NCBI GenBank assembly: GCA_004764695.1
Contig: SMSO01000031.1
Coordinates: 680,600 to 744,599, forward strand
Origin: Schizochytrium sp. TIO01
Lineage: Eukaryota; Sar; Bigyra; Thraustochytrida; Thraustochytriidae
Direction: 5' to 3'
DNA length: 64,000 nucleotides
Shown here: positions 6,919 through 62,190 of the stretch, in pieces
How the letters are laid out: each line of letters starts with the position of its first letter
Numbering within the stretch: the first letter of the stretch is position 1
The notes under the pieces: model-generated
Seen by the model: the letters and a program-made list of their open reading frames with translations, nothing else
Database searches by the model: none
What the model was told of the DNA's origin: nothing
Made by a program: the position numbers and the translations under genes

Positions 6919-7668
6919 ATGTTCCGCACGGCACTTTCCCGCTCCTCGAGCCTCGCTGCTCGCTCCATGGCCGCCTCCACGGGCTCCATGCAGGTCTCCA
7001 TGCGATTCTCTGCGCTCCGTGGTCTCGCCTCGTGGCCCAGCCACACCGTGCTCTCCCTCCCTGCGTTGTCTCCTACCATGGAGAGTGGTGGCATTGCTGG
7101 CTGGACCCTCAAGGAGGGCGATGCCATCAACCCTGGTGAGTCTATCTGCGAGGTTGAGACTGACAAGGCCACCGTGGACTTCGAGGCGCAGGACGAGGGC
7201 TTCCTCGCCAAGATCCTCGTGCCCGCCGGCACCTCTGACGTTGCCGTCGGCACCCCGATCGGAGTCATGGTTGAGTCCGAGTCTGATATCGCTGCATTCA
7301 AGGACTTCACCGCCGCCGATGCCGGCGCCAAGCCTGCTGCATCCGCCGAGGAGCCCAAGAAGGCCGCCGAGGAGCCTAAGAAGCCCGTCGAGGAGCCCAA
7401 GAAGGCCGCTGAGGCGCCTAAGAAGCCCGTCGAGGAGCCCAAGAAGGCCGCCGAGCCCAAGCCCGCTGTGGCTTCTCAGCCAGCAGCCTCGCAGCCGAAC
7501 CCTCCCAAGACCACCGCTGCCAAGCCTAAGGCTAAGCAGTCCTTGCCCCAGATGAAGTCCCCGCTCCAGGCAATCTTGGAGAAGGCCCAGAGTGACTACG
7601 AGAAGCAGTACGGTATCACTGGACTCTACCACAAGAAGGCTGACAAGCCTGCTGCTGCATCTGCATAA
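6919..7668 (+). CDS. Mitochondrial lipoyl-domain protein (E2/E3BP-like, no catalytic domain)
   Basis: 249 residues. Residues 1-40 are rich in Arg, Ser and Ala with almost no acidic residues, as in a mitochondrial presequence. Residues 42-118 form a biotinyl/lipoyl domain like that of pyruvate dehydrogenase E2 ([13 protein letters not shown], then [12 protein letters not shown] with the lipoylated lysine at 83). Residues 137-205 are an Ala-Pro-Lys-Glu linker with repeated EEPKK units, typical of the mobile linkers of these complexes. The last 40 residues (from about 208) match neither the usual E3-binding domain nor the acyltransferase core, which is absent although the frame ends cleanly at a stop. 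It may be a protein-X-like accessory subunit or a free lipoyl carrier. The domain is certain; the role is inferred. Confidence 0.85.
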
Positions 7669-11712: not shown

Positions 11713-13041
11713 GTGATGTTGTTTCGTTCATGATTTGATTGACTTAAGTACCATAGTATTTTAATTAATATTAATATCATTCTTTAATTTTTTTAATAAT
11801 TAATATGTGTGTATATATATATATTTTATTTTTATTTTTTTTAAAGTTGGCATAACTATAAAACTAATGAACTGATAAAATAAGAAGTCTAATCAGCTGC
11901 TCGCTGGCCACGTGCTGCTGGCTGCAAGCTTGGATACGTCGATGTCCGCTCTGGTTCGTACTCTATGCGTCGATGCTCAGCCCACATAGGTTGAACCCCC
12001 ATCATGGTTTATTGTATCTTTATTGGCGTCACCCTCATTCGGAATGGACATTTGCAGGTCTTTTTTTAACTATGCCATCGCGTCGTCCTGTGTAGTCCTA
12101 TATCCATGCCGAAAATACCTGTTTAAATAATCACATCCGCAATGTAAGCAATATTATACCAAGGGTAAGTGCGTCCATAATGATTGAGAGAACGAAAACT
12201 AAATTTAAATATTGCACCCGGCGCGCTTTCCTGCCACTTCCTGTTAGAAATGTGTTTGCGTCACCTCTTTTCCTTTTTTCTCTGTTCATTACAGAATAAA
12301 AGCTCTTTCAAAAATATTATTTAGAGAAAGTATTAGCACTTTACTATCCGCTGCTAGCAGTGTCTCCAATTTTTCAAAGTTTATATTTATAAAATAATAA
12401 TAATAAATAATAAACAAAGGAGAAGGAAGTTCGTCCTTATTATTATGATTAGTTTAGTTACTATCTTTTAGTGACTCGAAAGTGGTTTTCTTCCTGAGCA
12501 ACTTGGAAAAGATTGGTCAACCAAACAATCGACTCGCAGCCTCAACCAAGCCCAAAGAGCTTTGTCGCTGCCGTCGCAGTACCTTAACTCCTTCCCTCCT
12601 TCGTGCAGCGTGCTCCAGCCCGCTTGCTCGCCCCCTTACCAACGAGGACTTTTGACTTGTTTAGTCCGTTTCGTTTATCTCGAGAAACATCCGCTCGGGT
12701 CACAAGCGCCGCTCGGATCGGACTCGTGCCTCAGTACCCCGACTTACAAGTCGCCACGGCTCTAGTTGAGCTTGCACGAGCGCAGTCGCACAGTTTAATA
12801 CGTTGTGAGTGAGCATCGCCTCTTTGTCACGAATAAAGTCTGTTAAGAAGAGCGAGCTCAGCTTCTTCGAACTAGAACGCAAGAAATACAACTATAGTGA
12901 ACCGGGTTCCTACGTTTACAAGCCTTAGTGGAAGTCGCTTCAACGATATCACTGATCCCAAGCAAATCTCAAAGTGCTGTAGTGCATTTTGAGCAGTTTC
13001 GAGATCGGTTTTGAGGTTTCGAGATCGGTAGATATCGATCA

Positions 13042-13150: not shown

Positions 13151-13912
13151 ATGTCGTCTAACTTTAGCTTGGCTGCGGCACGGGCCGCCTTTTTGCACCC
13201 AGAGTATGGCTGGAAGACCACCCACTTCTGGGGACCGGTGGCTAACTGGGGCTTGGTTGCTGCTGCTGCCTTTGACATGAGCACTAAGGGACCCGAGGTG
13301 ATCTCGCTGCCCATGACCGCAACCCTCAGCATCTACTCTGGACTTTTCATGCTCTTCGCATGGCGCGTTCAGCCCCGTAACTACCTCCTCTTCACGTGCC
13401 ACGCCTTCAACGAAGCTGCGCAGCTCGTACAGCTTAAACGAGGAGTCGAGTACCAGAATGAGCTGGAGCGTAAGGGCGAGCCTGTGACCAGCAAGTTTAG
13501 CCCACTTGCCTATGGCGGCGCTGTGGCTACCACCATCGGCCTTGGCCTCACTGGTGGTCGCATTCAGACTGCTCTCCTTGGCATGAACTTGCCTTCTCCG
13601 GTAACCAACTTCATGAAGCACCCGGCTGGGCCTTTCACCATTCACTTCTGGGCGCCTAGCTTTAAATGGATGCTTTCTGTGTCAAACTTTCTCGACTTTG
13701 ATCGTCCTGTAGACCAGATCAGCACCATGCAACAGACTGCACTCTGTGCTACTGGATTTATTTGGTCTCGCTACAGCATGGTCATCACCCCCAAGAACTA
13801 CAACCTCTTCGCAGTTAACTGTGGTCTTGCTGTCACTGGTTCTTACCAGCTTGCTCGCAAGATCAAGAGCCAGTTCGGCTCCGGTGAGACCACAAAGGCC
13901 GCCTCTGCTTAA
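13151..13912 (+). CDS. Mitochondrial pyruvate carrier, natural MPC1-MPC2 fusion
   Basis: 253 residues with two complete MPC domains. Residues 10-98 match MPC1: [21 protein letters not shown], then [20 protein letters not shown]. Residues 156-240 match MPC2: [40 protein letters not shown]1 and MPC2 are normally separate proteins that form the inner-membrane heterodimer importing pyruvate; here both are in one chain. The linker (99-155) holds a stretch rich in small and hydrophobic residues (about 117-144) that could be an extra membrane helix, as TM4 joins the two halves of SWEET transporters of the same superfamily. The start is the first ATG; upstream codons in frame lack one. Domain calls are firm, the linker helix is inference. 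Confidence 0.92.
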
Positions 13913-14937: not shown

Positions 14938-17900
14938 ATGGTGTCTCAACCCACTCAGACGGGAGCGGGTCTGCGCGAGTCTGCCTGCACGGCAGCAGCG
15001 CAGTACTCGATGGCTGAAGAACTCGGATTTCTTTCGCAGGAAATTGATGGCCTGCAGGCTAGTTTGGCACAGAGGTGTGGACTTCCTGCGCAAGGAGTAC
15101 AAGAGGCGCTTGTCAGGTTTCGCATGGCAGCTGGAGAGACCGCATCTGGTATGTTTCATGATGAGAACTCAGCCCGATTCCGTGATCTTGCCAGTCATGC
15201 GAAACATTTGACTGGAGAAAACTTTAAGGATGACGAATGGGACAATATCGCACTGACACTTGCGGAATGTGAAGACCTAAAAACTCGAGGTCTTGGTGTA
15301 TTTCACGAACTTTATGCGCTGAGAACACATGCATCTGCCGTCCCCACGCTAAAGTCAAATGATCACGAAGAAAAGTTAATGTACTACCAGGAAGTTTACG
15401 ATATATTGCGCCCCGAAGTTGAACTCATTGCCGACCTTGCCGAGCTTCAGGAGGATATTGCAAGTCTCTTTAAGCAGGTTTTCGAGAGGGTTGCCTCCAA
15501 ACGAGAGCTGGAAGTTAGACTCTTTATGCCTCCTCTCTTGCACCTTTTAGACCTTACCATTCTTCTTGATTGTCTTAAAGATAGTAAGCCGTGTCTGCAA
15601 AATGACTTTGCGGCCTATAAACGTGCCTTTCACATGGTAAAAGGGAAAATGCCGTCAAGTCAGGTTAACGAACTCACAACCGAGCAGGAAACAATTCAAT
15701 TCTTTCTCGCAGATCCAAAATGCCCTAAAAGCACGTTTTTCAACCATCTTATGGAAGGTATTCATCCTGTGCGTCATTCAGTCCAAACCCTCGGCGAAAT
15801 CCTAGCCTGGACTGCTAAGCGTCTTCGCACACGAGACTATTTTACCCCCGAAAGTAAATGGCAGCTTGAACGCACTTTGCCATTCATTGTACTTGCTCTC
15901 GATTTGAGCAAGGACGAGAAAGGTAATGATATTAACATTTTCAAGTCAAAAAAAGTGATGACGTCGGATGTTATGAAAACTATTAAGGCTCACCCTGTAC
16001 TTCGCATTCAAGCTGACATGCATCTCACTACAGAGTCTATTCTCTTGCGATGTCCACATTTTGGACCAAACCTTCGGGACGCATACTACACTGATCCTCG
16101 TGATCCCAAATTTCAGGTTGAAAATAGTTTGGCTAATCTCTGGCCTTATTTTAAGTTACAATACGAAGTGTTTCAAACAGACTTCCAAGCGTTACTATTT
16201 CGGCTTGATACTGCTCAGCGATCAGCGCTCACTGCGGCAGGAGATTCTACGGGTATTGACATTGATTTAGCACATCAAGCTCATGCATGTGTATTGAGAG
16301 GTTTGTCATTACTATCTGAGTGGCGAGAAGCCATTCTGTATGAAGCGGCTTGTAAATTTGTGTGCCCAGCAGATGATAAAGCACTCTCTAAACATCGAAT
16401 TCCACCATCTGACCCTGGTGCTGCATACGCCAAAGGTGGCGTTGCAAATTATTCTTCCACAGACATTGCCGTGCTTTCTGATACGATTGCCTTGCTTAAA
16501 TCTTTAGGAGCCAGTCTTCAAACGCAAGAGCACACACTTGCACCATTCATCCGTGCAAGTATTTATGATCGTCTTCAAGGTATTCTTGATGAAACCCCCG
16601 AGTCGTTCTCTGCTGCACTCAGCATCAAGAAGCGCAAGGCTCTAAAGGATCTTATTTCTTCTCTGCGTCTTGTCATCGGCGACCCACGGCGTGCAAGTGC
16701 AAGCGGCCTCAACGGAAGTGCAAATGATGGGAAGAAATCTGACAAGAAGAAAAAATCAGGAGGAGTGTTTACATCGAGTCGTAAGCTAATGGCTTCGTCG
16801 TCCTCGTCGTCGTCGGCTTCAGATACCACCTCTGGCAACCTCGGCCGTGTGCACATTGTCATTCCTTCAGCTACGCAGTTGCACGTTGCTTACAACATCC
16901 TTCGAACGATAATCCCAGAAGCTGAGGATTCAAGAGCTGCCAAGGCATCTGGACTTTTCAATCAAACATCCTCCTCATCGTTAGTGGACTCCAACTCTAC
17001 ACAGGGAAGCCTATCCTCAACAAGCTTGAGTGCAGCATCTTCATCTCTGCCTGTTTCGAATAATGCAAATGCAGCTTTCTATGAAAGTATTCGCGGACCC
17101 ACTGTCGGACGTGCCCGTCTTCCTGTTCCGCTACACTTGCTATTAGATACACTTCGCACCGCTACGGCCGCGTGCGATTTAGGCGGATCTATCCACCAAC
17201 TCACAAATCTGGGAGAGCTATATTTCCGTGAGTTCTATCTGGACCTCGCCCGTGAACCCCAGTTCTCCAAGAGCCTCTCCTTAACTTATGCGTTAGCAAA
17301 GTCCACCCTATCGAGTCCTGCAAGCGTTGAAATGAATGCAACCTTACATGTGCTTGATATCTACAACGATGCAGCCCACATGGCAATTAAAGCGTATAAG
17401 CAGCAGCACCTTTTCGATGAAGTAGAAGGAGAAGCAAATTGTGCTCTTGACTATGCTATAAAGACTCTTTCACGCATGATATATATGCACCAAAAGACTT
17501 TGCAAGCTGCCGCGCATATGGATGCCCGATTTCGAGCAAAGCTGGAGCGTGCGAAGCATTCAGGTAGTACTATGCAACCTACACCTTTTAGGAATTTCCC
17601 TCTCATTAATGAAACAAACCTGCGTATGGTGGGCCGCCATGTTGACCTTGCTGGGTGTATTGCGGAGCAAGTAGAGATGATCCTTCTGCATGATGTCGAG
17701 GCTGCCCTAGAGACTTTTGAGAACAACTCCTTTTGCGGCATAATGCAACTCGAGTCTCACCTGTCCGTTATCCAGCTTACACGAGACGCACTAGACGACA
17801 TGTTACCCACAAGCTCCATTTTAGGTATGCGAGATCTTCTGGTTGAATCGAATGCCTGTGGAGTTGGCCGTGATATATCCAAAGGTCGAATTCCTTGCTC

Positions 17901-19085
17901 ATGTAATAAACATGATTCCTCAAATATTGCTTGATTTCACATATAATCACACGACAGACCGTTTTACACTCAGCGAGGATCAACTTACATTGAGGGAACA
18001 AGACTTTGTGCCTGCAGGGCCATTTGCATCTCATCTATTGTATGGTAGTAGTGCTACACAATGGTTCGAAGTTGTTCATAAACGAGAGCGTGGATACTTA
18101 GGCATTGAACACTTTCTTTCAATGATTCGTGTATTAGGACAAGCTCAGCTGGGTATTGTTATCGAAGGTCTCTTACAAGGACTTGCCCGGCATTTCTATG
18201 ATCGCGTGGAGCCCCATGTTCAAAATGGCAGCACGTGCCATGACGTCATTTGAGGCGCCCAGTGTGACAGTGCCTTTGCGGACGCGTATCACCAACTTCG
18301 AGAGGTATACAAACGCAGTTTTTAATAACGAAGAATCTAAAGGCATGGCAATGCAGGCCTTTCGTGTTTTTGGCAACGGTATCTCTATTATGAGACTGAT
18401 ACAGGGGGCCTTGGACGAGGTCGAAATCGCAGAATTTACACAACTTGCACCTTTTTTTGGATTTTACTCCACCAAGCAACTAGACTTTATCACAGAATGC
18501 AACGATGAAACCAAGGAACGCCACTTAAATGCGCGAACTCCTGTCTTCGCATCTTTTCTTGAGCGACTTGGAGCTGTGTTTGCTCAAAGCGGCACGACAG
18601 GTTTTTGTGAAATCTCCAGCGTTATACAAGCACTGCTTGTAAGGCCAAATGAACGTTGGCTAGCGATTTATGGTGATGGGATCGCTCTTGCAACGTTTTT
18701 GCTCATTCACTTTGCAACAGATTTCCATACTTTTAGCATACGCGGGTTTTGCGAGCAAGTCCTTCAGGCTCACTTCCTTCAAGGAGATGTTCAAGGTGAT
18801 GACCAGGAGGCAATTCGAACAATTATTGCTCGCGCTAAGCTTCTTCATGAACAGGGGCAATCTACGCTGGCTGCGTTCGACTGTGCCTTCCCTAGGGCAC
18901 AATATGTTCGTATGCAAATATATCATCCCCCGACCTTGGCCACACTCAAGATCGAGAAAGAGCCCGAGTACACGCCGACTTCAACAAGTCCTCGGGATTC
19001 TAAGATTTCACAAGAGCCCAAAAGCCCCGAAGCTGTAATTCGAAAACCAATGCATATCCGCAGAAGTGTCTATTATAAGTCATAG
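14938..19085 (+). CDS. CYFIP/Sra-1-like subunit of the WAVE (SCAR) complex; frame moves +1 twice
   Basis: CYFIP binds activated Rac and holds the WAVE complex inactive, controlling Arp2/3-driven actin assembly. The sequence aligns along most of the CYFIP family: LFMPPLLHLLDLTI..NDFAAYKRAFH early, LFREFxLxL-like YFREFYLDLA, then LDIYNDAAHMAIKAYKQQ and MVGRHVDLAGCI. The first frame (14938 to about 17855) continues in the next frame (about 17855-18225, TYNHTTDRF) and then the third (about 18225-19085, AFRVFGNGISIM). Each junction needs one base to be skipped, and the alignment with animal and plant homologues has no gap there, so ordinary introns do not fit. Joined length would be about 1380 residues against about 1250 in animals; Ser-rich inserts (near 16780-17060) explain the excess. 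Start is the first ATG; homology begins soon after it. Confidence 0.85.
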
Positions 19086-19385: not shown

Positions 19386-22300
19386 TCAAAGATCCTGAGA
19401 TAAAAAGTCTTGCCACAGCTCCGTAAAAGGTTTGACAGTCACTGCCTTTTCAATAGCTTCCCAGTCTGTCTCACGTTTTGTTTGCTCACCAGTTTCTTGT
19501 TCACCGCCAAAGAGAACTTTCTTTAACAATCCAACCTTGTCTCCATTTACAATATTGCTAGCTCCAGCATTGCCAAACAGTGATCCCGATGAACTCCGGC
19601 GAGGCAAAATTAGTCCAAGAGCTTCACGATCCGACTCTCCCATGTTGAGCAAATTAGCAAGTAGGGTTAGTAACTCCCGCTGTGACTGATAGCTTCCTGT
19701 TTGCTTCTGTACAAAGTACGTTACCACAAGTTTTTTCATCATCTCGCGATCCACACGTCCATCGTCATCGCTTTGTTCACGAGGAGACTTTTGCTGCTGG
19801 CCCTCGACAGTCTTTTCAATCTCCTCAAGACCAGACGGGTCAAGCTCGCTAGACTGCTGCCGTTGCAGTTCCTGCCGGCGAGCTGCATCCTGCGAATTTG
19901 TCCAGTCTTCTTCGGCACGCTTTAAGGCATCAACCTCCGCACGTAGCACTTGAATCGTACGATCTGCAGCAGCGGCAGCAAGTCGTGACTCGTGTGCCTC
20001 CTTTGCAAGCTCTACTCGGTCCGTATCGAAGTTTTCTTTGTTTTTCTCCATAGTGGTGCGCTGTTCCTGAACCTCACGCTTGAGGTCCTCGATCTTTCTC
20101 TTGTAAACTCGGGCTCTCTGCTCTACCTCTGTGTTAAGTTGTGCCAGAGCTGCATTTAAGGTTTCTCGCTCCGAACGAAGACGATCAAGGTCTGTCTCTG
20201 CGACCTTGAGTTCAGCTTGAGTTACCTTCAATTCTGCAGTTAAACGGTGAACTTGCTGATGTTGCCCAGTTTGGGTTGAGAGATCCTCGCGCAATGTGGC
20301 TTCACGCTCAAGAGCGTCTTCAAGCTCTTCTTTGAGACGTTCAATCTCCTGATGTTGTGTGGAAATCTTGCTAGCTCCTTCCTTCTTACCACGGGAAAGA
20401 TCTTCTAATTTCTTCTGTAAAGTTCCAATTTTATAGATCAACTCTTCTTTTTCTTCACTGCTCTCCCGCAAATTTTCTTTTAGAGCACGTGATTCATCTT
20501 CAAGTTCGAGGAGAATCTCCTCGTATTCCTGACATTTCTCTTGTAAAGAATCATGCGATCGCAAGGTTTTCTTCCATTTGTCCTCAAGCTCTTGATATGC
20601 ATCTCCAAGCTTTTCCTTTGCTGATTTCAACATATTCTTCTCAGTTTCAACGCGCTGATTAAGTTCGTCAAGTTCTTTATTCTCTAAGACAAGCTCTTCA
20701 ACACGGTGCCGCAAAATTGAAATTTCGTTTTCTGTATCAGAGCCCCTTTGGATTTGCTCACGAAGCAAGTCACGCTCATGTGACGCAAGATCAAGGGCGT
20801 GCCGGAGTTTATCGCATTCACTTGCATGAGACTTCTGAAGTTGGTCAAGCTCGTTCTGCAAAATTGCTTCTTGCGCTTCAAATTTATCAGTGAGCGCCTG
20901 CATGCTACATTCATGCTCGGAGCTCATGCTCACTTTTACTTCCTCCATACTATTTTCCATTTCTTCTCGAAGAGCTTCCAGGGCGCGAATTTTATCAGTT
21001 TCGAGCGACTGCCTAAGCTCTTGTATAGCTTCTCTGTGTTTCTTTGAAGCCCTCTCCACGGCATCTGATATCCTTGCTTCAATGGATGTTTCTTCAGAAT
21101 CATTGTTACGAAGCTCAACCTCATAGCGCTTGGCTTCTGCACTCATTTTGCTATCCGATTCGCGCTGGGAAGTTACTGCTGCGTTGAGCTTTTCGGTAGA
21201 TGATCGTTCAATTTCACAGAGCTCCCCTTGGTGTCGAATTTGTAGTTCCTCTATTTCTGTATTGTGAGACCTCTTCAGTTGCTCCAGCTCGGCTTGCAGT
21301 TCAAAAACTTGTTTGCGTACCTTTTCTTCTTCTAAAGAGGCGATTTTGACGTGTGTTGTTGCTGTTTCAGCTAATGAAGATAGCCCATTCTTCTCCTTTT
21401 CGAGAGATTCTAGTTTACTTTGCAGGGCTGCTATTTCAGCAGAACTCTGTTCTGCAAGTTGCTTTAAGTTTTTCACATTGCATTCAGCATTGTTTCGAGC
21501 ATTCACTGCCGCATATGTGTCAGCTTGCAATTGCTGTGCGGTTTCTCTTGCCTTTCCTAATTCAAGATTGGCTTCTTCCAGGCTTTTAAGTAGGTTGGCA
21601 TTATCTGCACGAGCTGCCTCGGCATCGCCCCGAGCTTGTTGAGCTTCGGCGAGTGCGGCGTTTAGGTCTTCTTGCGAAATCGAGGAACTTTGGCTGTCAA
21701 AAGTCCTGCATTGTTGAGAATGACTTTTAGTGCTTTGGGCATCTCCAGTCTGACCTTCGCCCAGAGGCGAACTTGGCGCATTCCAAACAGTCTCTTCTTC
21801 TTCTTCTTCTTCTTCTTCTTCTTCTTCTTCTTCTTCTTCTTCCTCTCCCATCATGACCTTCATCTTGTCATCGTCGTCGTCATCATCAACGTGTACAGTT
21901 TCTGCCTTGATGTGCAGCCTTGAGGTTTCAAGTTCCTCAGTTTCAAATACCCGTGATGGTTTTAGAGTTGGTGGAAAACTGGCTGGCTCCAGAGTTGAAG
22001 TAGGTTCGGGTTCCGTCAAATTTTGCAACCGTTCACTATCAAGATGTGCCTTAGCTAAATCATGAGCTGATAATGTTTCTGCAACAGATTCTGGTTTGAT
22101 CAAAGATGAGTCATTTACAGGAAAGGATGAACCTCCGAGTTCAGCTTCGCTGAGCTCAGAATCAGACCACGAGTTACTTTCCTTGTCAGATGAGGACTCC
22201 GCTAGCTTTTGAACATCTTTTTCAACATCATGATCGAGGATATTATCATTGTCTCTGATATTAACCTGGGTAGGTTCATTATGGTCGGTCTCACTGTCAT

Positions 22301-23076
22301 CACCATGAGAAGGATGCCGATCTTGATAATGTGCAATTCCGCTATGTTCACTGTTGCTATCATCGATGTTGGTATGAATGGCATCTTCATTATCGCCTCC
22401 ACTGCCGCCATCCTCGTCACCGTCATCAATCTCGTCAGACCATCTCTTAAATTTAGCTTCTCCTGATTGTTGTAGTGTTGTCTCATTATCGCCTCCACTG
22501 CCGCCATCCTCGTCACCGTCATCAATCTCGTCAGACCATCTCTTAAATTTAGCTTCTCCTGATTGTTGTAATGTTGTCTCATTATCGCCTCCACTGGCAC
22601 CATCCCCATCATCGTCATCATCCTCGTCAGACCATCTCTCAAATTCAGCTTCTCCTGAATGTTGTAATGCTGTCTCAGGTTTTGAAACTTGCTTCTCTCC
22701 CAGGGCTGTGTCTCCAAAAGGGCCTCCATGCTGATAGTTATTGTCAGAATCTTCAATTCGGTGATGTTTCGAATCTTGCATACCAGCAGCTTCATTGAAT
22801 CTTGTATTATAATAAGAGTCGTCTCTAGATTCCTTTGTGGTGGCTATCTGTATGGTGGTGTTCATCTGCTGCTACTGCTGACGAATAGCCTTGATCCCCG
22901 TAATCGTTTTGAGCGTTGTTATAGCCATCTTCCTCCTCATCGCGCCTCTCCTGTTCGTAGTAGTCATCGTCGTTGTCATCGTACGAGTTATTGTACTGTG
23001 CTTGGTGTTGATGCGCTTCATCGATAACATCTTGCAAGGCTTCACCGAATTTTGAGACAACACTTGAAAGCCACAT
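19386..23076 (-). CDS. Golgin-like long coiled-coil protein (GMAP-210/Rud3 or TMF type)
   Basis: From the ATG at 23076 the protein opens with an amphipathic segment (MWLSSVVSKFGEALQDV) like the membrane-sensing N-termini of TMF1 and GMAP-210. An acidic, low-complexity region follows, then about 750 residues of heptad-rich coiled coil. Near the C-terminus (19.6-19.75 kb) KKLVVTYFVQ..ELLTLLANLLNM resembles the GRIP-related Arf-binding (GRAB) domain that brings Rud3/GMAP-210 to the cis-Golgi. Such golgins tether vesicles. The N-terminal frame ends at 22825, while the main frame opens right of 22865, one base forward, so a one-base offset, a tiny intron or a wrong start must lie between 22825 and 22870. 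If the N-terminal part is excluded, the main frame starts at the ATG at 22865 (1159 residues). Family by architecture, not by close sequence match. Confidence 0.7.
21794..21843. repeat. (TTC)n microsatellite coding poly-Glu
   Basis: About 16 TTC units on the plus strand, read as GAA on the minus strand, give an uninterrupted run of Glu in the acidic region of the golgin. Length is likely variable between strains. Confidence 0.95.
22395..22682. repeat. Three tandem 96-bp repeats inside the golgin gene
   Basis: Units start at 22395, 22491 and 22587. The first two are nearly identical, the third has diverged. Each encodes 32 residues containing LQQSGEAKFKRWSDE and an Asp-rich stretch. The 96-base period keeps the frame. 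Confidence 0.95.
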
Positions 23077-57886: not shown

Positions 57887-57895
57887 TCAGCATAG
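57020..57895. repeat. Diverged tandem repeat, period about 465 bp
   Basis: Two copies (about 57020-57430 and 57485-57895) share blocks such as TCTGGTCAG..GAGGTTGACT at their left ends and CTAG(C/T)TCCTTC(G/A)ATT(G/A)GAGATCTCAG at their right ends. The right copy runs into the 3' end of the kinase gene, so an end of the gene's flank was duplicated. Confidence 0.75.
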
Positions 57896-60800
57896 CCTTT
57901 CTAAAGCTTCCTGGCAGATTTTTGATGACGGAAATTCTTCATGTGCCTTCGAAACATACCAATTCGCACCCGCTTCCATGAGAATAAGAAAGACGTACCC
58001 ATGAAAGGCAAGATTCTTCAATGCCTTACATGCGTTTTCTTGCACGCCTACATTCGTTGGATGTGCGCGCATGGCGGCCATAATCTCTGCACCCGCATTC
58101 AAATCTTCTCCCAAGATCTCTCTGTTGCGATCATTTACAGCAAGACTGCCCAATGCCGCACATGCGTTTTCTTGCACGCCTACATTCGTTGGATGTGCGC
58201 GCATGGCGGCCATAATCTCTGCGCCCGCGTTTAAATCTTCTCCCAAGATCTCTCTGTTGCGTCTTATACATGTAACAAGAATACACAATACCTCACATGC
58301 TTTTGCTTGTACACCTGCATTCGCTAGATGTTCGCGCATGGCGGCAACAATCTCTGCGCCCGCATTCAAATCTTGTCCCAGGATTTCTCTGTTGCGTTCG
58401 TTTAAAGCAAGAATCCGCAAGGTTTCACATGCTTGTTCTTGGACGTCCGCATTCGTTCGATGTTCACGCATGGCCGCCACAATCTCTGTGCCCACATTCA
58501 ACTCTTGTTCTAATATCTCTCTGTCGCGGTCAGTCTGGGCAGCGAAATTCCCCAATGCTGCACATGCGTGTACTTGCACGTTTGCATTCGTTCGATGCTC
58601 GCGCATGGCGGCCACAATCCTTTTGATCATATACCGGGGTATTCTATCGATCTTTGAGAAGGGAAATTTAAAAGAAAGATTCCGCAATGCCTCACATGCT
58701 CTTTCTTGCACGCCTGCATTCGTTCGATGTTCGACCATGGCGTCAACAATCGTTGCACTCGAATTTTCTGCGAATTCATAGCCCCAATCGTTAGATAAAG
58801 CAATATACGACGACAACGCCAGACATGCTTCTTCTTGCACGTTTGCATTCGTTCGGTGTATGCGCATGACGGCCACAATCTCTGCGCCCACATTCAAATC
58901 TTGTTCTAGGATCTCTCTGTTGCGGTCATCTAAAGCAAGATACATCAATGCCCAACATGCAATTATTTGTACGTCTGCATTCGTTCCATGTTCGCGCATG
59001 GCGGCCACAATCTCTACGCCCACATTCAAATCTTGTCCTAGGATCTCTCTGCTGCGTTCATGTTTAGCAAGATCGATCAATGCCTCAAACGCTCTTATTT
59101 GCATGTCCGCATTCGTTCGATTTGCGCGCATGGTGGTCACAATCTCTGCGCCCTGGATCTCTGCGTTGTTATACTTGATAGCCTTCATAACAAGAGAAAA
59201 TGCCCCAAGCCTTTCTGCTTTCACTCCTGCATTCGTTAGATGTACGCGCATGGCGAGCACAATGTCTAAGCCCACATTCAGTTTATCTAACAGGCTCTCA
59301 CAGTCGTGCTCGTTATTAGCGAGACTCCATAATGTCAAACAAGCGTACCTTTGAACGTCCGTATTCGTTGGATGTGCGCGCATAGCGGTCACAATCTCTG
59401 CGCCCACATTCAAATCTTGTCCCAGGATCTTTCTGTTGCGATCGTTGTCAGCAATATTCATTAATGTCCCACATGCACTTATTTGCACGTTTGCATTCGT
59501 TCCATGTTCGCGCATGGCAACCACAATCTCTGCGCCCGCATTCAAGTCTTGTCCCAGTCTCTCTTTGTTGCGATCGTCCTTGTAGGCAAGATTCATCAAT
59601 GCGTCACATGCTTGTTTTTGCACGTCTACATTGCTTCGATTTGCGCGCATGGCGGCCACAATCTCTGCGCCCACCTTCAAATCTTGTCGCAGGACCTCTC
59701 TGTTGCGATCATCATTGTAGGCAAGATTACACACTGCCGCACATGCGTACTTTTGCACGTCGGCATTTGTTGGATGTGCGCGCATCGCGGCCGCAATCTC
59801 TATGCCCACATTCAGATCTTGTACCAGGATGTCTTGGTTGCGAGCGTTTACAGCAAGAATGCACAAGGCCACACATGCTTGTTCTTGCACATTTGCATTC
59901 ATTCGAGGTGCGCGCATGGCAGCCACGATCTCTGCACCCACATTCAGATCTTGTACCAGGATCTCTCTGTTGCGATCATTTTCAGCAAGATTGTTCAATG
60001 CCGCACATGCTTGTTCTTGTACGTTTGCATTCGTTCGATGTGCGCGCATGGCGGCCACAATCTCTGTGCCCACATTCAAATATTGTCCCAGGATCTCTCT
60101 GTTGCGATCAGTGAAAGCAAGATTCCGCAATGCCCCACATGCTTGTTCTTGCACGTTTGCATTCGTTCGATGTACGCGCATGGCGGCCACAATCTCTGCG
60201 CCCAGATATAAATCGTGTGCTAGGACAATTGCGTTATTTGTATTACTGTATGCGAGGCTCCTGACACAAGCACATGCTGCGGCCTGCACTGCTGTTTCGC
60301 TCGCATGCTCTTGCATGATACTTAACACTACAGGTCCTATACCATACCTTTCCATTGCTGCCTTAGTGTATTCACCGAAAGCTTCACGATGAAACGCGTA
60401 ATGGAATATCCAAAGTGCTTCGGAAATCACCTCGGCATCGCGTTGCTCTTCCTTTAGGATTCTATGCAAATGAACAAGAATACCCCGCTCACGAACAACT
60501 CTCCTCAGCTCATCATCGCCACCTACGGTCTCAGCAGCTTTGAATTCGCCTTCCAGAGCATCATGCAAGCTCTGTAGTGTTCGTAGCAGATCCGTTCTAT
60601 CGCCTCGATCAGCCAGATCTCGAAGTAGACCCCGCACCATTTCGACATTCACATTTCGTTTTGCAGATGTGCGATGGATTCTCTTTATAAATCCACCAGC
60701 AAGCCCGCGAATGATGCGGCTCGATCGGCGTTCACCACCTCGAGACTCGAAACTCTTTAGAATATCCTTAGCAGTTGGTCTGTTAGCAGGCTCCTCGTCC

Positions 60801-62190
60801 CAACAAGACTTCATGATGCGGACTATCCAGTGTTTCACAGGTACTTCGTCAGAGATTTCAGGACGCTCACCTGCGAGAACCCTGCTTTCAAGCTCTCCTG
60901 GATGATACACGAGATGCTCGTATGGCATCTCCTCGTGGTACATCTCCCACATAATCAGGCCTAGAGAATATATGTCTGCCTTTGTTGTCCAACGAGCAGG
61001 AGCTTGAAGTACTTCTGGAGCCATGTACACCCGGGTTCCGGCCACCGAAATGGTCTCTGCAAAACTTGTATTTGGGCTCGTTCTGTCTGCAAGACCAAAG
61101 TCGGTAAGCTTTACCAGGCCCAGGTCTTGGCTGAGGAGCACATTGGCAGGTTTCAGATCACCATGAATCACATTTTCACTATGCAGATAGCGGAGCCCTC
61201 GTGTGACACCGCGCAAAATGGCCTCTTTATCATCTAGTCCAAGGGTAATGCGTGTGCCGCTCGGTTCTGTCCTGTGCAGTAACTCATCTAGAGGGAAGTC
61301 GCACTTGTCCATAACCAAATGAAACCGGTTCTGAATGATGCATGTGCCGAGAAGGCAGACGATGTTTTTGTGATTCAACCCTTGCCAGCTTTGGGCCTCT
61401 TCAATCAATGCCTTTTGCTCAGAAAGCTGAAGGTGGCCACGGATTTGTCGAACTCTCTTGATAGCAACTGGTATGTTTATTCCATCCTCTCCTTCGAGAA
61501 CACCTGACAGGACTTGTCCAAAGCTGCCTTCACCAAGAATATGCTCGGGATAGTCTATGGTAACCTTTTCCAGTGGTATTGTAGCCATCTCAGACTCTTG
61601 AGTTTCTCGCACTGCACTAATAAGCTCTTGCAGCGCTCGTCGCTGTCTTCGCGTCCCAGCACGACCTGCTTATGATATCTGTAAGGTTGATGTCAGGATG
61701 GTCTTTGAGCAATAACAGTATGGCTTCAACTTGGTCGTGACCTTCGTCTTGGTATTGCTTGATCATGTTTTCAAGACGAAGGTGGTCTTCTTCGGCATCG
61801 TCGAGATCGATTTGCTCGATGGCTGCAGGCGGGGACGGGAACTCGAAGCGGATTCGGCAAACTTGGATCAATGTTTGCAGACGCTGCTCTACATCTGCGA
61901 GCACTTGAGTAGCTCTCTTGGTGTCCATGAGTTGTAAAATTATGGTGGATCTATCATCACTAGGATCGAAGAACTCGCGAAGCAACGCGATGATGTTGCG
62001 CATATTTGCCTCAACTTGGAAAAAGTTGATCTTAGCATGGTGGAGGGGTTTCCAGGAAACTGGCAAGCTTGGTGAAGACATTGTTGAGATGTGCAGCTCT
62101 TCGGCGACACGTGTCTGTATGCTCGAGAAGTGTCGCGGCCTCGCGGGCTAGCTGAAGCGAAGAAGTGAAGTTTGGCATAATGCTCGGCAT
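57887..62190 (-). CDS. TKL-type protein kinase with N-terminal helical bundle and about 18 armadillo repeats
   Basis: The main frame, from the ATG at 61588, gives 1233 residues. A kinase domain (about 10-285) has GEGSFG, VAIK (Lys44), HGDLKPANV (Asp144), DFG (163-165) and APE (190-192), so it looks active; HGD in place of HRD is common in TKL kinases. From about 400 on there are about 18 repeats of 42-45 residues with consensus R-H-x-TNA-VQ--AC-AL--LA, then NREIL-QDLNVGAEIVAAM, an armadillo/Vac8-like array. Upstream, helical sequence in two frames (62190 to about 62045, AREAATLLEHTDTCRRRAAHL; about 62045-61640, VEANMRNIIALL) probably belongs to the same protein. Joining them needs two one-base (+1) steps, or introns. 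The helical part resembles MLKL/HeLo bundles, a tentative call. A role in sensing or defence signalling is inference. Confidence 0.8.
57990..60330. repeat. Array of about 18 coding repeats of 126-135 bp
   Basis: Each unit encodes one armadillo repeat. Several units are nearly identical in DNA: the two at about 58030-58130 and 58158-58258 share a block of over 50 bases without mismatch. A few units (near 58600-58830 and 59150-59300) have diverged strongly. The pattern fits unequal crossing-over or gene conversion. Confidence 0.9.

Follow-up and report, generated by a model that had tools for sequence, protein, structure and literature searches.

A probable single-chain mitochondrial pyruvate carrier in a labyrinthulomycete, with MPC1 and MPC2 halves joined by a likely membrane-spanning linker

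Introduction

Several 7-segment proteins of the mitochondrial pyruvate carrier (MPC) family, with a 3+1+3 topology, were described by Medrano-Soto et al. in 2020 (PMC7176098). In the example C5K6B0 (TC 2.A.105.1.8), the best alignment partner of segments 1-3 is an MPC1 homologue (46.7%), and that of segments 5-7 is an MPC2 homologue (55.3%) (PMC7176098). The authors favour duplication of a 4-segment precursor and could not eliminate a fusion of MPC1 and MPC2 into which a central segment had been inserted (PMC7176098). Among the matches listed by literature searches on MPC fusions and on MPC in such protists, judged by title and the start of the abstract, we recognised no report besides Medrano-Soto et al. 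2020; a literature search with the accession C5K6B0 likewise returned that paper only (PMC7176098).

The human carrier and the SWEET proteins provide the structural frame of reference. Each subunit of the human complex has three membrane helices, and the two lie parallel; a model proposed earlier had a different orientation and gave MPC1 two helices (PMC12007569). SWEET proteins, which are sugar carriers (PMC7408425), consist of two three-helix bundles plus a linking helix, and in both SWEET and cystinosin it is an extra helix that joins the domains (PMC12007569). SemiSWEET likewise pairs three-helix bundles, as a bacterial homodimer of separate chains from which the linker is absent (PMC12007569, PMC7408425).

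The window, by which we mean the whole 64,000-nucleotide stretch of DNA analyzed, contains a single-chain MPC1-MPC2 carrier gene at 13151..13912 (+; 253 codons plus stop), identified from its frame translation, Pfam matches, and a genome match. Its host is a marine fungus-like protist, and C5K6B0 is a protein that we take to be from Perkinsus marinus. We propose that the gene probably encodes a seven-helix (3+1+3) single-chain mitochondrial pyruvate carrier. The original prediction, made by a reader unable to search, suggested that such a fusion might be undescribed; 7-segment MPC proteins have been in print since 2020 (PMC7176098). A joined MPC is not new as a kind, and the present gene is a further clear example, which adds a labyrinthulomycete.

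As in the published 7-segment MPC proteins, an MPC1-like half is followed by an MPC2-like half in one chain. The order of the halves, the putative central segment, and the proposed 3+1+3 topology are those given for C5K6B0 (PMC7176098); the host here is a labyrinthulomycete, and the likeness is to the published description. The fusion is also the sole MPC locus found in its own genome. The human MPC1/MPC2 and MPC1L/MPC2 heterodimers (PDB 9mnw, 8yw6, and 9giv) are homologous to the two halves and have 11 of 12 pocket residues in common with them, but are formed by two chains rather than one. Relative to human MPC2, the N-terminal amphipathic helix is apparently replaced by a hydrophobic linker, and K66, E21, N33, and R39 are changed. 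The arrangement proposed here is analogous to that of SWEET and would differ from SemiSWEET in being one chain with a linker.

Results

The reading frame and its linker

The frame at 13151-13912 (+) translates to 253 residues as one open frame, with a stop codon at the terminus only. The frame corresponds to 693750-694508 of contig C30 (100% identical and stop-free), which belongs to the same assembly as the window and is no independent check. Coding bias was measured as the mean codon log2-odds per codon. The linker region (residues 103-152, 13457..13606, +), supported by in-frame coding bias and hydropathy and overlapping at its end the part aligned with human MPC2 (from residue 143), scores 0.58 per codon in frame 0, and residues 113-145 score 0.65. 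For comparison, the two halves score 0.40 and 0.36, and 158 overlapping 99-base stretches of window sequence presumed to be noncoding have a mean of -0.47 and a maximum of 0.27. For residues 113-145 the bias is shared by the two strands, since the reverse strand reaches 0.55 in one frame. The linker DNA behaves like coding DNA, and in the frame used by the two halves.

An intron inside the linker was also considered. In-frame GT..AG pairs of 40-160 bases were sought in the linker region, and 13 were listed, with starts GTACAG, GTCGAG, GTACCA, GTGACC, and GTGGCT; none of the 13 (0/13) has a GTRAGT donor. Given this list and the in-frame coding bias throughout the linker, the intron was rejected. 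The MPC1-MPC2 fusion is real in the genome sequence. It is scarcely credible that assembly or reading joined two separate genes because a stop was lost or an intron overlooked: a sole assembly stands behind the frame, but same-frame coding bias crosses the linker, the listed pairs include no GTRAGT donor, and 7-segment proteins of a similar kind are already in print.

Identity and origin of the two halves

In a Pfam-A scan, MPC (PF03650) was the sole family listed, in two stretches, and the whole protein (E 1.5e-64, 215.4 bits) exceeded the curated cut-off of 27 for PF03650, the family classified as TC 2.A.105. With E values up to 1, the scan still gave MPC alone, with no match to the SWEET (MtN3/saliva) families. 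Searched with phmmer against PDB chains, residues 22-102 resemble human MPC1 (E 3.5e-25) and residues 143-236 resemble human MPC2 (E 4.5e-26). The MPC1 half (residues 1-102, 13151..13456, +), aligned to human MPC1 from residue 22, is identical to it at 48 of 80 aligned residues (60%). The MPC2 half (residues 153-253, 13607..13909, +), assigned from bit scores and identity to human MPC2, is identical to that protein at 46 of 94 aligned residues (49%). Scored alone against the human chains, the first half gives 94 bits with MPC1 versus 42 bits with MPC2, and residues 142-253 give 95.5 bits with MPC2 versus 41 with MPC1L and 32 with MPC1. These bit-score gaps and the identities to the human paralogs indicate that the halves are MPC1 and MPC2 and not recent copies of each other. 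The phmmer ranges and bit scores thus bear out the fusion as first claimed, with MPC1 first and MPC2 second, and the family hallmark motifs cited with that claim are present in both halves.

On the same scores, a fusion of two pre-existing genes, MPC1 and MPC2, is favoured over a lineage-specific duplication. That the protein arose by internal duplication within one gene, and not by fusion of MPC1 and MPC2, would fit the homology of the halves to each other and a 3+1+3 plan typical of the superfamily (PMC7176098). Each half is nevertheless far closer to its own human paralog (94 versus 42 bits and 95.5 versus 32-41 bits, in a comparison covering human chains only), which makes this origin improbable. 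Such a human-only comparison would also be compatible with a fusion of great age that other lineages subsequently split again.

Conservation of the pyruvate pocket

The paper on the human MPC1L/MPC2 structure names 12 pyruvate-pocket residues (PMC12007569). By alignment, 11 of the 12 are identical in the fusion: L35, Y62, F66, F69, L80, and H84 in the first half and K172, T201, W205, L219, and N223 in the second. At the remaining position, S35 of MPC1L, the fusion has N32, and human MPC1 likewise has an Asn (N33); among the pocket variants, in which transport was severely affected, the alanine change at S35 was the exception (PMC12007569). H86 of MPC1L and K49 of MPC2 are essential for pyruvate binding, their alanine changes having abolished the binding signal (PMC12007569), and both are kept: H86 of MPC1L (H84 of MPC1) as H84 and K49 of MPC2 as K172. 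Both cis-prolines are also kept (P75 and P214).

Other positions have changed. K66 of human MPC2, which in the outward-open human state forms an inter-subunit salt bridge with E51 of MPC1L (PMC12007569), is Q189 here; its partner is kept as E49. The glycines of the bending region of human MPC2, G51 and G56, are M174 and N179; together with the change at K66, these count against the carrier proposed here. Human MPC2 residues E21, N33, and R39, which belong to the helix-turn-helix network and with D18 make the turn from the amphipathic helix to the linker helix (PMC12007569), are G144, K156, and F162, changes that count in favour of the proposal.

The only MPC locus found in the genome

The genome (64.06 Mb, 37 contigs) was covered by six-frame searches that ignore introns. 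The PF03650 profile gave two matches, both within the fusion frame. With E values up to 10, the fusion protein itself matched one place in the whole genome, its own locus. Under the same limit, human MPC1 matched two places, both in the fusion frame (60% identity in the first half and 29% in the second), as did human MPC2 (49% in the second half and 34% in the first). No separate MPC1 or MPC2 gene was found with these queries (PF03650, fusion, human MPC1, and human MPC2) in six frames across the whole genome; because the searches ignore introns, a very fragmented MPC gene could escape detection. As a control, the Tim17 family of small mitochondrial membrane proteins gave six genome matches, four of them above the cut-off, so the method does find another family of this type. 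No relatives of the fusion were confirmed in collections of prokaryote genome contigs and viral contigs, a result that is silent on other eukaryotes because the collections comprise prokaryotes and viruses.

A likely seventh membrane helix

If both subunits are parallel three-helix bundles, a single-chain dimer needs one more crossing, or an odd number of crossings, between its halves. From hydropathy, we place the proposed extra membrane helix at residues about 116-137 (13496..13561, +). Residues 116-136 form a 21-residue run devoid of D, E, K, and R, and acidic residues are absent from 111-152. For the linker, the best 19-residue hydropathy mean is 1.10 (at 116-134), a value within the span of the six carrier helices of the fusion (0.54-1.56, with boundaries that we set from the alignment), below the helices of human MPC2 (1.36-1.45), and above or near those of human MPC1 (0.59-1.06). 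In their N-terminal regions, human MPC2 and human MPC1 score -0.07 and -0.35, respectively. With a hydrophobic moment no higher than 0.18, compared with 0.53 in the N-terminal region of human MPC2, the linker stretch is unlike a surface amphipathic helix. When aligned with human MPC2, the hydrophobic stretch falls opposite the first MPC2 residues, where the amphipathic helix starts, and just before them.

A control set of 607 overlapping 50-residue stretches was drawn from 10 presumed soluble proteins of the same genome. Hydropathy of 1.10 is reached by 80 of these stretches, a charge-free run of at least 21 residues occurs in 48, and 3 have both. Linker hydropathy alone is weak evidence for a membrane helix. 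The stretch is rich in Gly and Thr, and a crude sum of Hessa-type residue values is +5.7 at 116-134; by this measure the fusion's own carrier helices also give positive best sums. AlphaFold, run on the single sequence without relatives, draws a helix at 118-133 with too low a confidence to count (pLDDT 36.4, pTM 0.25). The membrane linker helix of the original prediction is thus favoured by hydropathy and by the parallel human topology and gains no support from the AlphaFold model. On this evidence, an extra membrane-spanning linker helix is likely.

Two other readings of the linker have to be weighed. The linker could lie outside the membrane, with the MPC1 half of one chain pairing with the MPC2 half of another, or with the two halves running antiparallel. 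The AlphaFold model is of low confidence (pLDDT 36.4), and the moderate hydropathy of the proposed helix is matched by 80/607 control stretches; against this, the pocket residues kept in both halves point to normal parallel pairing, and the 21 charge-free residues have a low hydrophobic moment. We regard a linker that does not cross the membrane as quite improbable. Alternatively, the chain could be a precursor whose linker is cleaved once it has been imported, and an ordinary heterodimer of two chains would then do the transport. The length of the linker (~50 residues) would suit such processing, as would its polar, charged opening stretch (103-115), which is possibly exposed, but a charge-free hydrophobic stretch would have no purpose in a spacer destined for cutting, and cleavage seems unlikely.

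Genomic neighborhood

At 12996-13029, about 120-155 bases upstream of the fusion start codon, a 14-base sequence occurs in two exact copies whose starts are 20 bases apart, possibly by chance. Approximately 5.5 kb upstream of the fusion, 6919-7668 (+) encodes a 249-residue protein with a presequence-like start. It contains one lipoyl domain (PF00364, E 4.9e-17), which begins LPALSPTME as in the gene designated L015, and a Lys/Pro/Glu tandem repeat at 7343-7455; Pfam finds no E3-binding or acyltransferase domain in it. Four genes in the genome combine lipoyl and acyltransferase domains, and for two of the four (L013 and L015) the scanned frames yielded no E3-binding domain. Downstream of the fusion, 14938-19085 (+) carries a CYFIP/Sra1-like (FragX_IP) gene in two open frames. 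Tandem repeats occur farther along the window: a 96-base unit in three copies (93% matches) at 22387-22677, within the minus-strand frame 19386-22865, and a large degenerate array of a 132-base unit (16.8 copies, 72% matches) at 58008-60225, within the minus-strand frame 57887-61588. The product of the latter frame combines a protein kinase domain with armadillo repeats of the LRRK2 type, and the long plus-strand frames overlapping it are probably spurious.

Host genome and pyruvate metabolism

LABY primers amplify labyrinthulomycete 18S rRNA genes (PMC9171235). A 69-base 18S rRNA probe matched four places in the genome, and in all three of the 18S loci that were read (3/3), the LABY-A primer site is exact and the LABY-Y site has two mismatches. 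The LABY-A site is typical of labyrinthulomycetes, and its match places the genome in Labyrinthulomycetes. Aurantiochytrium-like genomes have rDNA at many contig ends; with four 18S places found here, the assignment is kept at class level. A fusion of triosephosphate isomerase (TIM) with GAPDH is typical of stramenopiles. No such fusion was found in this genome, where the frames of the two TIM genes, with 281 and 267 residues, leave no room for GAPDH; TIM genes without GAPDH count slightly against a typical stramenopile.

The pyruvate kinase family has four genome matches, corresponding to three full-length genes and a short match (a 54-residue frame with an internal stop). In one of the three (L011; contig C4, match 1640178-1641146; 592 aa), the first ~50 residues are rich in Arg, Ala, and Ser, contain no acidic residue, and look presequence-like by eye. 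Of the other two, L009 (525 aa) has no presequence-like start and L010 (867 aa) carries a long extension at its N-terminus. Stramenopiles have mitochondrially targeted enzymes of late glycolysis, pyruvate kinase having been shown in Phytophthora infestans (PMC5715807). Mitochondrial late glycolysis is possible in the present host. If its pyruvate kinase is mitochondrial too, pyruvate may arise on either side of the inner membrane, and transport could run in either direction.

Discussion

Our preferred reading remains an intact, seven-helix single-chain carrier. In such a protein, two three-helix bundles would lie side by side and parallel, as in the human heterodimer, and H84 of the first half and K172 of the second would handle pyruvate plus a proton between them. 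Residues ~116-137 would constitute the seventh membrane helix. The MPC1 half would end on the matrix side, and this helix would lead the chain back across the membrane to the start of the MPC2 half on the intermembrane-space side. Having one chain would fix the stoichiometry at 1:1 and yield a SWEET-like 3+1+3 architecture.

More speculatively, and with considerable doubt, Labyrinthulomycetes may have replayed the step from SemiSWEET to SWEET. The MPC genes would have fused and the amphipathic helix of MPC2 would have become a crossing helix, independently of the other 7-segment MPC proteins; the resulting obligate single-chain carrier may have to work in both directions if, as one presequence-like pyruvate kinase suggests, the cell makes pyruvate on each side of the inner membrane.

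Since cryo-EM has by now resolved the heterodimer along with its topology, the finding is only modestly surprising. The fusion nonetheless bears on the published question of whether joined MPC proteins originated by duplication or by fusion. A single-chain carrier of fixed stoichiometry would be usable for structural and inhibitor work. As the only MPC found in its genome, the fusion would provide independent evolutionary evidence that the working unit of the carrier is one MPC1 and one MPC2, arranged in parallel.
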